Assembly: GCF_003010965.1 (NCBI RefSeq)
Contig: NZ_PGGM01000004.1
Location: 62,001 to 126,000, forward strand
Source of the DNA: Phyllobacterium sophorae
GTDB lineage: Bacteria; Pseudomonadota; Alphaproteobacteria; Rhizobiales; Rhizobiaceae
Length of the DNA: 64,000 nucleotides
Direction: 5' to 3'
The notes under the pieces were generated by a model. The model saw only the letters and a program-made list of their open reading frames with translations. It was not told the DNA's origin and did no database searches. Positions 48,224 to 62,997 of the stretch are shown one piece after another; the first letter of the stretch is position 1; each line of letters begins with the position of its first letter. The position numbers were made by a program, and so were the translations under genes.

Positions 48224-49942
48224 TCACTTTCCGATAATCCTGTTTGCCGCCGAGATAATTCCCTCCAGCGAGGCAGTCACGATATTCTTGTTTATGCCCG
48301 CACCAAAGATTTTACCGCCCGGGTGTTCAATTTCCATGTAGCTGATGGCAGCGGCGTCGGATCCGTGTTGAAGCGAATGCTCCGAATAATTCACAACCGA
48401 CAGCCTGATGCCGAGATAGTGCGAAAGTGCGTCGATGAAACCATCGACCGGTCCCGTGCCCCTGCCCTCGATGCGCTTGGTCTCACCACGATCGGTGATC
48501 TCTGCAGAAAGTATGCGTATTCCCTTGTGCTCAGTGTCGGGATAGGTGTGGTGATCAACGAATTTCAGGCGCGCACCTGGCTGTTCGACATAGAGCTCCT
48601 GAAAACGCTCGTAGATCCGCCTGGATGGCATCTCCTTGCCTTCCACATCGGTAATTTGCTGGATATCCTCACGGAATTCCACCTGCATGCCGCGCGGCAG
48701 GTTCAAGCCATAGTCGGCTTGGAGAATATAGGCGATGCCACCCTTGCCTGATTGCGAATTGATGCGAATGATCGCTTCATAGCTGCGGCCGACATCCTGT
48801 GGATCGATCGGCAGATAAGGCACTTCCCACAGGGTCTTGTTGGCCTGCTTGATCGCTTTCATGCCCTTGTTGATCGCATCCTGATGCGAGCCGGAGAACG
48901 CCGTGTAGACCAGTTCGCCCACGTAGGGATGACGTTCCGGAATCACCAGCTGATTGGAATACTCATAGACCTCTTTCATCCGGTTAATATCGGAGCAGTC
49001 GAGTTCGGGATCTACGCCTTGTGTAAACATGTTCAGCGCCAGCGTAACGATATCGACATTGCCGGTCCGCTCGCCATTGCCGAACAAGGTGCCTTCCACA
49101 CGGTCTGCGCCAGCCATCAGTCCGAGTTCCGTCGTCGCAACGCCCGTGCCGCGATCGTTGTGCGGATGCAGCGAAATGATCAGGTTTTCGCGATTGTCGA
49201 GCTGGCGGCACATCCATTCGATGCGATCCGCATAGATATTCGGGGTCGACATCTCGACGGTCGATGGCAGGTTGATGATCAATTTGTTGTCAGGCGTTGG
49301 TTTGACGATCTCCGTCACCGCGTTGCAAATTTCCAGCGCAACTTCCAGTTCAGTGCCGGTGAAGCTTTCCGGCGAATATTCGAAGCGGTAGCCGCCGCCT
49401 GCCTTTGCCGCCATGTCGGTGATCATCTTGGCAGCGTCGGTAGCGATAGTCTTGATGCCATTGACGTCTTTGTTGAACACCACGCGGCGCTGCAATTCAC
49501 TGGTGGAATTGTAGAAATGCACAATCGGCTTGTGTGCGCCTTCCAGCGACTCGAAGGTTCTTGTAATCAGCTCCGGCCGGCATTGTACCAATACCTGCAG
49601 AGAAACGTCCGGGCCGCAATTGCCTTCTTCTACGCACCAGCGGGCGAAATCGAAATCCGTCTGCGAGGCTGACGGAAAGCCGATTTCGATTTCCTTGAAA
49701 CCCATATCGAGCAATAGCGCAAACATGCGCACCTTGCGGTCATGCCCCATGGGGTCTATTAGCGCCTGATTGCCATCGCGCAGATCGACCGAGCACCAGA
49801 TAGGCGCTTTTTCGATACGCTTGGAAGGCCATTGCCGGTCTTTCAAGTCGACAATTGGATAGGGCTCGTACTTCTTGGCAGCATCGGGCATGCCCGCGTT
49901 CTGTTTGCCCATAGTCTTTGCGGGGACGATCATGTCAGTCAT
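48224..49942 (-). CDS. leuA: 2-isopropylmalate synthase
   Basis: A 572-residue long-form enzyme that condenses acetyl-CoA with 2-ketoisovalerate, the first committed step of leucine synthesis. The catalytic barrel shows SVDLRDGNQALIDPM and FKEIEIGFPSASQTDFDF, the metal ligands ISLHPHNDRGTGVATTELGL, and a C-terminal allosteric domain (residues about 430-572). It belongs to the bacterial type similar to yeast Leu4. ATG 49942 is preceded by AGAAG. A leader peptide with a Leu run and alternative hairpins lies 133 bases upstream, so expression is probably attenuated by leucine supply. Confidence 0.96.
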   Translation of the reverse strand: MTDMIVPAKTMGKQNAGMPDAAKKYEPYPIVDLKDRQWPSKRIEKAPIWCSVDLRDGNQALIDPMGHDRKVRMFALLLDMGFKEIEIGFPSASQTDFDFARWCVEEGNCGPDVSLQVLVQCRPELITRTFESLEGAHKPIVHFYNSTSELQRRVVFNKDVNGIKTIATDAAKMITDMAAKAGGGYRFEYSPESFTGTELEVALEICNAVTEIVKPTPDNKLIINLPSTVEMSTPNIYADRIEWMCRQLDNRENLIISLHPHNDRGTGVATTELGLMAGADRVEGTLFGNGERTGNVDIVTLALNMFTQGVDPELDCSDINRMKEVYEYSNQLVIPERHPYVGELVYTAFSGSHQDAINKGMKAIKQANKTLWEVPYLPIDPQDVGRSYEAIIRINSQSGKGGIAYILQADYGLNLPRGMQVEFREDIQQITDVEGKEMPSRRIYERFQELYVEQPGARLKFVDHHTYPDTEHKGIRILSAEITDRGETKRIEGRGTGPVDGFIDALSHYLGIRLSVVNYSEHSLQHGSDAAAISYMEIEHPGGKIFGAGINKNIVTASLEGIISAANRIIGK

Positions 49943-50030
49943 TTGCTTCTCGTTTCCGGCCGGATGCGAATAGGTTCCCTCGCGATCACGGCACTCTTCT
50001 TAGGCGTTACATTTGTCTTGTAAAGGGATA

Positions 50031-50092
50031 AGGAGCGACAGCCAGGCGGCAATTTCGACCGCCGGACGCTCCTCTTAACGAGCCCGGCGGTC
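50031..50092 (-). promoter_or_regulatory. leuA attenuator: alternative terminator and antiterminator hairpins
   Basis: Terminator: AGGAGCG (50031-50037) pairs with CGCTCCT (50067-50073) and the inner GGCGG/CCGCC (50045-50049/50059-50063); on the minus strand it is followed by TATCCCTTT. Antiterminator: GACCGCCGG (50057-50065) pairs with CCGGCGGTC (50084-50092) over nine bases. The two share 50057-50065 and exclude each other. The upstream antiterminator arm lies in the last codons of the leader peptide, so a ribosome reaching the stop would free the terminator. Confidence 0.8.
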
Positions 50093-50191
50093 GCCGATAA
50101 GGTCGAGGAGAAGCGGAAGGAGAAGTGCGCGATTCGTCAGGCCTGCAAAAGCAGACTGGCCGAAGGACTTATGTGTCGGGCGCGTTTTCAT
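50075..50191 (-). CDS. leuL: leuA leader peptide (38 codons, Leu-rich run)
   Basis: A start ATG at 50191 opens a 38-codon frame ending in TAA at 50075-50077. Codons 23-31 read LLLPLLLDL: seven Leu in nine codons (CTT, CTC), followed by DLIGDRRAR. The frame lies immediately before alternative hairpins and leuA. By analogy with known Leu leaders, a ribosome slowed at the Leu run when charged tRNA-Leu is scarce leaves the antiterminator free. The peptide itself probably has no function. A -10-like TATTTG is eight bases before the ATG, so the transcript may be leaderless. Confidence 0.82.
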   Translation of the reverse strand: MKTRPTHKSFGQSAFAGLTNRALLLPLLLDLIGDRRAR

Positions 50192-50192
50192 G

Positions 50193-50228
50193 GGTCAGAC
50201 AAATAAACGACTGTCTGACCGGATGCAA
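50193..50228 (-). promoter_or_regulatory. leuA leader promoter with overlapping operator palindrome
   Basis: On the minus strand TTGCAT (50223-50228) and TATTTG (50200-50205) are 17 bases apart and end eight bases before the leader ATG. A perfect inverted repeat, GGTCAGACA (50193-50201) and TGTCTGACC (50212-50220), ten bases apart, overlaps the -10 and part of the spacer. Promoter and operator roles are inferred from position and symmetry. As an alternative, the same repeat could be a stem-loop ending the upstream hydrolase transcript. Confidence 0.6.
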
Positions 50229-54678: not shown

Positions 54679-54706
54679 CTTCATCTCCAATTCGTTGCAT
54701 CTGGCT

Positions 54707-54807
54707 CTACTGCGCCGTGCGTCCAGTGGACGCTGAAGGGACGCAGTAGCACCGTGAATCTGCGCATAACCCTTTCCAAAAATCGAAGATGATTTTGGGG
54801 TTATGCG
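54707..54807. repeat. Palindromic intergenic repeat, copy 2, inside the trpE(G) leader
   Basis: The same two-hairpin element as at 13732-13829. CTACTGCG (54707-54714) pairs with CGCAGTAG (54742-54749). Then CGCATAACCC (54764-54773) pairs with GGGGTTATGCG (54797-54807), and AAAATC pairs with GATTTT inside. It lies between the attenuator terminator and the trpE(G) start, so every antiterminated transcript contains it. Confidence 0.78.
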
Positions 54808-54828
54808 TTGGGCATCGGACGGTCAAAC

Positions 54829-61710: not shown

Positions 61711-62997
61711 TCACTCATTAAATCCATACAACCGCTTCCTTAGCCCTTCCTTGTCGTTCAAATAAATCGTCTTCAGGGTCTCGACGACATGTTGCTGATA
61801 GGGCGGGTTCCAGCTTTCATAGTCCGCAAAAAATCCCGGCTTGTTGAACACATAGCGTGACAGGAAATCCCACGGCACGAAATCGCTGATCAGATGGTTG
61901 ACCAGCCAGGCATCCGGATGGCGGGGCAGCGCGCGGACGACAAGGAACCGGCGCTTGGGATCGATCTCGGCCATGTTGAGCTGCCCGGTCTGGCCGATCT
62001 CGCGCTTGACCGCATTGAGGAACGGCCAGGTGCCGTCATGATTGATCAGGGCGGCATTGGCGTGGATCCATGTCTGCAGCCAGATACGGTCGATATTGGT
62101 CAGGTCCCGTTCGGGTTCCAGTGCCTGGATCAGGTGGCGGATGATCATCTCGCCGCGATTTTCCAGATAGCCGGATTGCTCGATCCATGAGGCGCGCGGC
62201 AATTCGATGCGCGAGGTGGAGGCAAGAAATTGAAAGACCTGCTCGGCATCCTTGATGGAAATATAATTGACTTGCCAGGGGCGTGAACGCCTGAACCCCG
62301 GTGCCGACGGGTCGCCGATAACCGTGGTGGTATTATCGTCGACGAATATATACGTACCGCCGAAATGGCTGGTCCAGAAGGCGCGGTGCCGGAACATGAC
62401 CTTGTCCGGCACCAGCGAATTCTCGCGTATGTCGCCGGTGATCTTGGCGAGTTCCACCATGCGGTTGAGAAGTTCATTGTTGCGCCAGGCGTCCGGCTCG
62501 TTCTCCAGCCGGTCGACCAGCAGCCGCAGTTCCGCGGCCTGCCCCATGACGTTCTCAGCCGAAAGGACCCGGAATTCGACCTGGTTTATCGACAGCAAAT
62601 CCTCGATGTCGCTGACAACCGAAACCGAATCCTCGATCTCGCCGTAGAGCACATCCTTGATCGTCAACGCATTGATCGCCCGGGAATTGCTGGTGAAAAA
62701 CTCATACATCAGCTGCGATGTATTGGAGAATTGTGTGTGCACGACCGGCAGGTCAGCCTGCGCCGGTGTTAGAATGATGAAGCGCCGGTTGACGCCATTT
62801 GGATCCAGGTAGGACGGGTCTTTCAGTTCCTTGGCGATTTCCGGCGAAAAGCCGGTCCGGTCAATGTCGAATTTCTTGAGCTTGGTCGCAGGAAACCCGA
62901 AGGATTTCAGCGCCCGGTTATAGCGCTCGATCAGGTGCGGCTGGTCGACCGTCAGCAAGCGCCCGTAGATCAGATCGTTTTCGTAAAGAAGGTCCAT
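61711..62997 (-). CDS. DUF6638-like protein
   Basis: A 428-residue soluble protein without membrane segments or known catalytic motifs (MDLLYENDLIYGRLLTVDQP, FEVLSAEN-like FRVLSAENVMGQAAELRLLV, HRAFWTSHFGGTYIFVDDNT). I match it to the DUF6638 family by memory of its order next to an AAA ATPase and DUF2333 in Rhizobiales; no function is known. ATG 62997 shares its A with the TGA of the ATPase gene, so translation is coupled. After its stop the frame continues in a segment resembling its own C-terminus. Confidence 0.72.
   Translation of the reverse strand: MDLLYENDLIYGRLLTVDQPHLIERYNRALKSFGFPATKLKKFDIDRTGFSPEIAKELKDPSYLDPNGVNRRFIILTPAQADLPVVHTQFSNTSQLMYEFFTSNSRAINALTIKDVLYGEIEDSVSVVSDIEDLLSINQVEFRVLSAENVMGQAAELRLLVDRLENEPDAWRNNELLNRMVELAKITGDIRENSLVPDKVMFRHRAFWTSHFGGTYIFVDDNTTTVIGDPSAPGFRRSRPWQVNYISIKDAEQVFQFLASTSRIELPRASWIEQSGYLENRGEMIIRHLIQALEPERDLTNIDRIWLQTWIHANAALINHDGTWPFLNAVKREIGQTGQLNMAEIDPKRRFLVVRALPRHPDAWLVNHLISDFVPWDFLSRYVFNKPGFFADYESWNPPYQQHVVETLKTIYLNDKEGLRKRLYGFNE

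Follow-up and report, generated by a model that had tools for sequence, protein, structure and literature searches.

Background

Attenuation read by a translating ribosome is textbook RNA control in which an intrinsic terminator is assumed to serve as the off-switch. For the leu genes of Escherichia coli and Salmonella, a review describes a Leu-rich leader before leuA in which the position of the ribosome chooses the hairpin, and with reference to Vitreschak et al. 2004 it mentions putative BCAA leaders throughout the Gram-negatives (PMC6123439). In Sinorhizobium meliloti, the rnTrpL RNA is reported to begin at the leader ATG (PMC7298713), and 171 leaderless starts were mapped in the same species, leuA being absent from the main text of that study (PMC3616915).

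A leucine leader upstream of leuA

The window, i.e., the whole 64,000-nt stretch of DNA analyzed, covered positions 62,001 to 126,000 of contig NZ_PGGM01000004.1 of Phyllobacterium sophorae (genome of 6.35 Mb in 49 contigs). The following features of the leuA locus are given in window coordinates.

48224 to 49942, minus strand: leuA, 2-isopropylmalate synthase (NCBIfam NF002991 and TIGR00970 over cut-off; Pfam HMGL-like and LeuA_dimer)
49946 to 49951, minus strand: likely Shine-Dalgarno sequence of leuA, GAGAAG (from the sequence)
50075 to 50191, minus strand: Leu leader ORF of 38 codons, upstream of leuA
50099 to 50125, minus strand: control codons 23-31 of the leader, CTT CTC CTT CCG CTT CTC CTC GAC CTT, LLLPLLLDL (from the sequence)
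50223 to 50228, minus strand: -35 box TTGCAT (from TTGC spacing to the leader ATG across 89 sequences)
50200 to 50205, minus strand: proposed -10 box TATTTG, with a 17-nt spacer (by eye; aligns with TATAGG of Sinorhizobium)

The 38-codon ORF (50191-50075, minus strand), with LLLPLLLDL at codons 23-31, was present just as an earlier sequence-only reading of the window had described it. Its 38-aa peptide matched no family of NCBIfam or Pfam. No Rfam family, the Leu leader family included, was found at gathering score in the window or at E <= 5 around the leader, and the leader RNA gave a single match in its own genome, with no second copy.

Related loci were the best 80 of 586 confirmed leuA candidates and hence close relatives (Phyllobacterium, Sinorhizobium/Ensifer, Mesorhizobium, Rhizobium, Nitratireductor and others), the closest leuA among these best 80 being those of Phyllobacterium (92-95% identity). 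A Leu-rich leader ORF preceded leuA in 80/80 of these named loci. With 19 further loci of the same genus and the window itself, 100 loci yielded 89 distinct sequences, all of which held the leader, its length varying by whole codons. Alignment of related leuA upstream regions, the check that had been suggested with the earlier reading, displayed conservation of the leader frame and of both hairpins. A chance origin of the ORF was rejected on its occurrence in all of the best 80 of 586 candidates.

The distance between promoter and leader was also constrained. The leader ATG lay 35-37 nt after the -35 TTGC in 80 of the 89 distinct sequences in a scripted count, which in three of those 80 (L040, L063, L077) chose an upstream in-frame ATG; seven sequences showed other distances, six of these seven at an upstream ATG, and two gave no value. 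About 6-8 nt separated the -10-like box from the leader ATG (by eye). Given this spacing, the leu leader mRNA is probably leaderless, with its transcript start at or adjoining that ATG. Such spacing predicts that translation of the leader depends on a 5'-terminal AUG.

Leucine codons of the leader departed from those of leuA. The Leu runs of 81 leaders encompassed CTT 300, CTC 106, CTG 40, CTA 10 and TTG 1 (n=457), while leuA bodies held only 106 CTT and 1820 CTG among 3081 Leu codons; no p-value is quoted, as the rows are related. CTT and CTC share a single tRNA-Leu, and the CTT bias predicts the reading of one tRNA-Leu isoacceptor.

Two alternative hairpins

Two helices sharing one arm were found around the leader stop codon.

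50084 to 50093, minus strand: arm 2, 5' arm of the antiterminator, in the last leader codons (folding, alignment)
50056 to 50065, minus strand: arm 3, 3' arm of 2:3 and also within the 5' half of 3:4 (folding, alignment)
50030 to 50074, minus strand: hairpin 3:4, previously called a terminator (folding; base stem GGAGC:GCTCC nearly invariant)

The antiterminator, earlier given as 9 bp, was present and somewhat longer, with 10 bp formed between 50093-50084 and 50065-50056 and a further 4 bp on the other side of a bulge, and its arm 2 lay inside the last codons of the leader, as had been claimed. The claim of mutually exclusive hairpins was borne out by arm 3 being common to both helices and by compensatory changes in each; arm 3 pairs in two ways, both conserved, which argues for a switch.

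Taken singly, both folds were more stable than expected (2:3, -27.3 kcal/mol, z -3.66; 3:4 at 50074-50030, -24.5 kcal/mol, z -3.62), none of 200 shuffles being as stable in either case. The joint 2:3 plus 3:4 stretch, in which 2:3 won, was less striking (z -1.86), 11/200 shuffles folding equally well. Covariation in 2:3 was counted on 76 distinct alignment rows, in which 99.7% of 912 cells were paired and one pair alternated between A-U (46 rows) and G-C (30 rows). Two-sided change affected 31 cells, compared with 12.3 on average after shuffling, a level reached in none of 500 shuffles, and the covariation score exceeded all 500 shuffles. Only two 2:3 pairs showed two-sided change, no excess over shuffles (194/500), and further pair types were fewer than in shuffles. 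For 3:4, two-sided exchanges occurred at arm-3 columns 45, 50, 52 and 53 (60 distinct segments), in counts biased towards structure since the base stem was enforced in folding; the base stem GGAGC:GCTCC itself was nearly invariant and so offered no covariation support.

This base stem (50066-50073 with 50031-50037) follows the leader stop directly and resembles a Shine-Dalgarno sequence paired with its complement; downstream, no start codon was seen (by eye). A pseudoknot in which this stem pairs alongside 2:3 is also conceivable. The hairpin base of the distant L135 reads ACGGC..GCCGT (by eye).

Helix 2:3 was more stable than 3:4 in 89/89 sequences (means of -25.6 and -20.6 kcal/mol), 3:4 being cut at its GC base for these energies; the margin in the window with flanks was smaller (27.3 vs 24.5). 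A 1:2 protector hairpin was dropped, its mean pairing energy of -17.1 kcal/mol being equal to that of codon-shuffled controls and none being conserved. As 2:3 is the more stable and no 1:2 pairing goes beyond controls, the RNA alone would favor 2:3, and the off-state with 3:4 would need a well-timed ribosome over arm 2.

Proposed switch

The comparison of relatives shows a conserved leader, two exclusive helices, a codon bias and a locked promoter spacing. A leucine-responsive switch read by the ribosome is therefore the likely function of the leuA 5' leader, as judged from sequence; the trp and ilvI leaders of the same genome were counted in its favor, while the response to leucine and its direction are what we infer. 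RNA polymerase would start at or adjoining the leader ATG, and ribosomes would load on the leaderless mRNA. A shortage of charged Leu-tRNA, especially of the reader of CTT/CTC, would make the ribosome pause at codons 23-31, leaving arm 2 free, so that the very stable 2:3 would form and leuA would be expressed. With ample leucine, the ribosome would reach the stop codon and mask arm 2, 3:4 could form and leuA output would fall.

The leucine attenuation that had been placed before this rhizobial leuA thus stood as regards the leader and the conserved exclusive helices, and was not supported as regards an ordinary terminator. The earlier finding was real and largely rightly read, its terminator being overstated; the leaderless spacing, the codon bias and the spread across the class are observations beyond it.

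The proposed off-step at hairpin 3:4

50020 to 50031, minus strand: stretch behind 3:4, TTATCCCTTTAC, without a clear U-tract (sequence and comparison of 89 sequences)

The claimed terminator (50031-50073) is a stable and conserved hairpin; its reading as an ordinary terminator was not supported, a clear U-tract being missing in most of the 89 sequences. Within the 12 bases behind 3:4, the longest T run was 1 in 27 sequences, 2 in 39, 3 in 20 and 4 in 3 (n=89), the hairpin end being mis-set in three rows (L009, L011, L101). A scan for a hairpin plus T-rich tail accepted 11/89 leu leaders vs 19/19 trp and 1/1 ilvI leaders. The trp leader of the window ends GGCGGCC-TTTTTGTTT, and 19/19 loci of the genus have that U-tract or nearly so; the ilvI leader of the same genome ends GGGGGCC-TTTTTTATTT. 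A consensus terminator scanner reported none at the leu leader and missed the trp terminator too, and so decides nothing. A clear U-tract, by which an intrinsic terminator is recognized, was lacking behind 3:4, which is no proof that 3:4 cannot terminate. With both hairpins and no U-tract beside U-tract-bearing trp and ilvI leaders, this leader provides a natural comparison for other ways of ending expression.

The two other attenuators were recorded in their own right. A homologue of the S. meliloti trpLE(G) attenuator lies within the same window, upstream of trpE(G) (54946-54826, minus strand), with the leader MNTRILSNGWWWAR and a hairpin with TTTTTGTTT; its Rfam matches were weak and under gathering score (RcsR1, 32.3 bits; Trp_leader, 20.6 bits). 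An interspersed repeat of ~100 bp (window about 54706-54809) separates it from trpE; it has seven more partial matches in the genome, and congeneric genomes contain others. The ilvI attenuator, upstream of ilvI in the same genome (L143, contig C22 near 154500), has the leader MKTVLIVVGSRMGRVL and a hairpin with TTTTTTATTT.

Three mechanisms, all versions of the 3:4 off-step, may be weighed. In classical attenuation, 3:4 would terminate by itself in spite of its poor U-tract. The stability, conservation and compensatory changes of 3:4 are in line with this, as are the 6 T among the 12 bases behind the window hairpin and the T-rich tails accepted exactly at the 3:4 base in L016 and L088 and three nt short of it in L058; the longest T run did not exceed 3 in 86/89 sequences, while a U-tract was found in trp (19/19) and ilvI (1/1), which makes self-sufficient termination less likely than not.

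It seems rather unlikely that Rho would act instead, between the hairpin and leuA, once translation of the leader ends. The untranslated stretch from leader stop to leuA (117-228 nt in 25 examples of 81) would give it room, and the first 20 nt behind the hairpin were G-poor (mean G 0.16), yet these 20 nt displayed no excess of C (mean C 0.26, A 0.30, T 0.28) and how 2:3 would block Rho is not clear.

The least probable version places control in translation, with the pyrimidine-rich Leu run pairing with the purine-rich leuA RBS until a stalled ribosome frees it. Modeled RBS openness rose from 0.37 in free RNA to 0.53 with the Leu run occupied (81 leaders). Exchanging the real Leu codons for synonymous ones raised the predicted openness of the RBS in 61/81 leaders (0.346 with the real codons vs 0.412), the predicted pairing of Leu run and RBS lay above the synonymous control in 58/81, and a parallel is described in actinobacteria (PMC1262725). 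Pairing of CU-rich with GA-rich sequence is, however, expected anyway and the effect was small; moreover, predicted openness was nearly as high (0.47) with a ribosome at the stop, which would leave the two hairpins nearly idle. This modeled pairing of the Leu run with the leuA RBS could provide another reason for the CTT bias, rivaling the reading of one isoacceptor.

An inverted repeat over the promoter

50193 to 50220, minus strand: palindrome GGTCAGACA-N10-TGTCTGACC, possible operator (arms 50220-50212 and 50201-50193)

The palindrome reported to overlap the promoter is indeed exact and lies over the promoter boxes. It has a single occurrence in the 6.35-Mb genome. When the 85-nt stretch was shuffled by mononucleotides 20,000 times, 50 of the shuffles contained a 9-bp inverted repeat with a spacer of 4-16. 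Among 21 Phyllobacterium-type sequences (15 distinct arm pairs), 157/189 position pairs were complementary vs a shuffled mean of 144.9 and a maximum of 154 in 2000, a test inflated by relatedness. Dyad symmetry over the promoter was kept in at least 5 of 9 pairs in 20/21 of these sequences, L101 keeping only 2.

The second, transcription-level control that had been suggested retained the conserved dyad over the promoter in its favor; the dyad was seen in Phyllobacterium-type sequences only, and neither a regulator candidate nor a second site was found. A lineage-specific operator is suggested with moderate confidence by the sequence pattern, and a protein that binds DNA as a dimer may act there in Phyllobacterium in addition to the leader switch. 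The competing view, that the palindrome has no regulator and is a by-product of constraint on promoter sequence in one genus, is a serious one to which we give slightly less than even weight. The strict form CAGACA-N10-TGTCTG occurred in 7/19 genomes, once each and always at leuA, a like dyad was absent in 19 inspected sequences of other groups (best repeats of 3-6 bp), and the inner bases of the palindrome partly coincide with the -10 box, all of which fit a by-product; the number of complementary pairs, above every one of the 2000 shuffles, with swaps like TA or GC for CG, speaks against it.

A wider palindrome regulon was dropped, as 19 genomes gave leuA places only. In Sinorhizobium/Ensifer, a shorter dyad, AAGCC-N7-GGCTT, was seen round the -10 box in 4/6 rows inspected (e.g., L032, -36 to +3 relative to the leader ATG).

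Leucine uORFs in other Alphaproteobacteria

LeuA was detected at E <= 1e-150 in 76/241 genomes of the class, and 71 of the 75 5' regions from genomes other than the window's were read (L160, G255, G181 and G279 left out). A CGA-CTT uORF was defined as a short ORF with in-frame CGA-CTT and ending within 66 nt. Outside Rhizobiaceae (n=71; loci L150-L159 and L161-L221), 25 regions held none, 18 one, 26 two and 2 three, i.e., at least one in 46/71 and two or three in 28/71, whereas mononucleotide shuffles gave, per 71, 1.64 with one uORF and 0.02 with two. The last two uORFs lay 129-212 nt apart, one pair excepted (31). TTGA(C/T) occurred 34-38 nt before an in-frame ATG, a leaderless-type spacing, in 35/46 first uORFs vs 1/30 later ones. 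The hexamer was codon-specific in the same zones (CGACTT 83, CGCCTT 25, CGGCTT 17, CGACTG 13). IGG formed the next residues in 7/28 second uORFs, and several of these second uORFs end like the rhizobial leader (LRLIGGRRA vs LGLIGDRRAR, by eye). GC-rich hairpins lay near uORF stops in ten folded examples (nine loci and L135, by eye).

On 370-nt class stretches, the hairpin-plus-T scan did not discriminate (33/71 real vs 28/71 shuffled) and was therefore used on short leader stretches only. Some leuA 5' regions of the class, e.g., L163, hold T-rich stretches. A covariance model of the leader matched 9/289 class genomes at E <= 0.01, namely the genome of origin, G307 (2.2e-9) and seven others with weak matches, of which the one in G203 lies just upstream of its leuA by coordinates.

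We tentatively advance, while doubting that it will hold in full, a class-wide leuA device made of a leaderless CGA-CTT Leu uORF, often followed ~130-210 nt on by a second on the same transcript, so that leucine would be gauged twice in succession. In this view the rhizobial type, with its one leader ending much like the second uORF, is a reduced form, and the off-switch, at least in Rhizobiaceae, would be Rho, pausing or translation rather than a U-tract terminator; the missing U-tract pertains to Rhizobiaceae, where it was observed. If the tandem form outside Rhizobiaceae is true, leucine control in much of the class would consist of two serial readings; no such arrangement is known to us among leaders read by the ribosome.

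Comparison with known systems

The leu leader codons of E. coli are CTA, and to our knowledge leu has no trans-acting RNA comparable to rnTrpL. Unlike the leu attenuator of E. coli and Salmonella, the one described here is probably leaderless, uses CTT/CTC codons, has no clear U-tract and matches no Rfam family; unlike in the enterobacterial scheme, 2:3 is more stable than 3:4. Both systems have a Leu-rich leader before leuA and hairpins that the ribosome chooses, or here would choose.

No paper on a rhizobial or alphaproteobacterial leuA attenuator was recognized among open PMC full texts, and a leaderless leuA start, a missing U-tract, CTT bias and a tandem form were absent from the portions of the literature examined. 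Like the proteobacterial attenuators of Vitreschak et al. 2004, as cited in the review, the present one is a comparative prediction, and the Leu leader may already be predicted in print, in part.

With S. meliloti trpLE(G)/rnTrpL it shares being an alphaproteobacterial attenuator with an RNA start at the leader ATG, here probable (PMC7298713); the trp attenuator differs by its Trp codons, its 14-aa leader and a terminator with a U-tract. The actinobacterial LEU element is alike in its Leu-codon leader before leuA, its alternative folds and the lack of a clear terminator, and differs in that a pseudoknot is closed there by the Leu codons and the leuA SD, whereas here two exclusive hairpins lie well upstream of the SD (PMC1262725).
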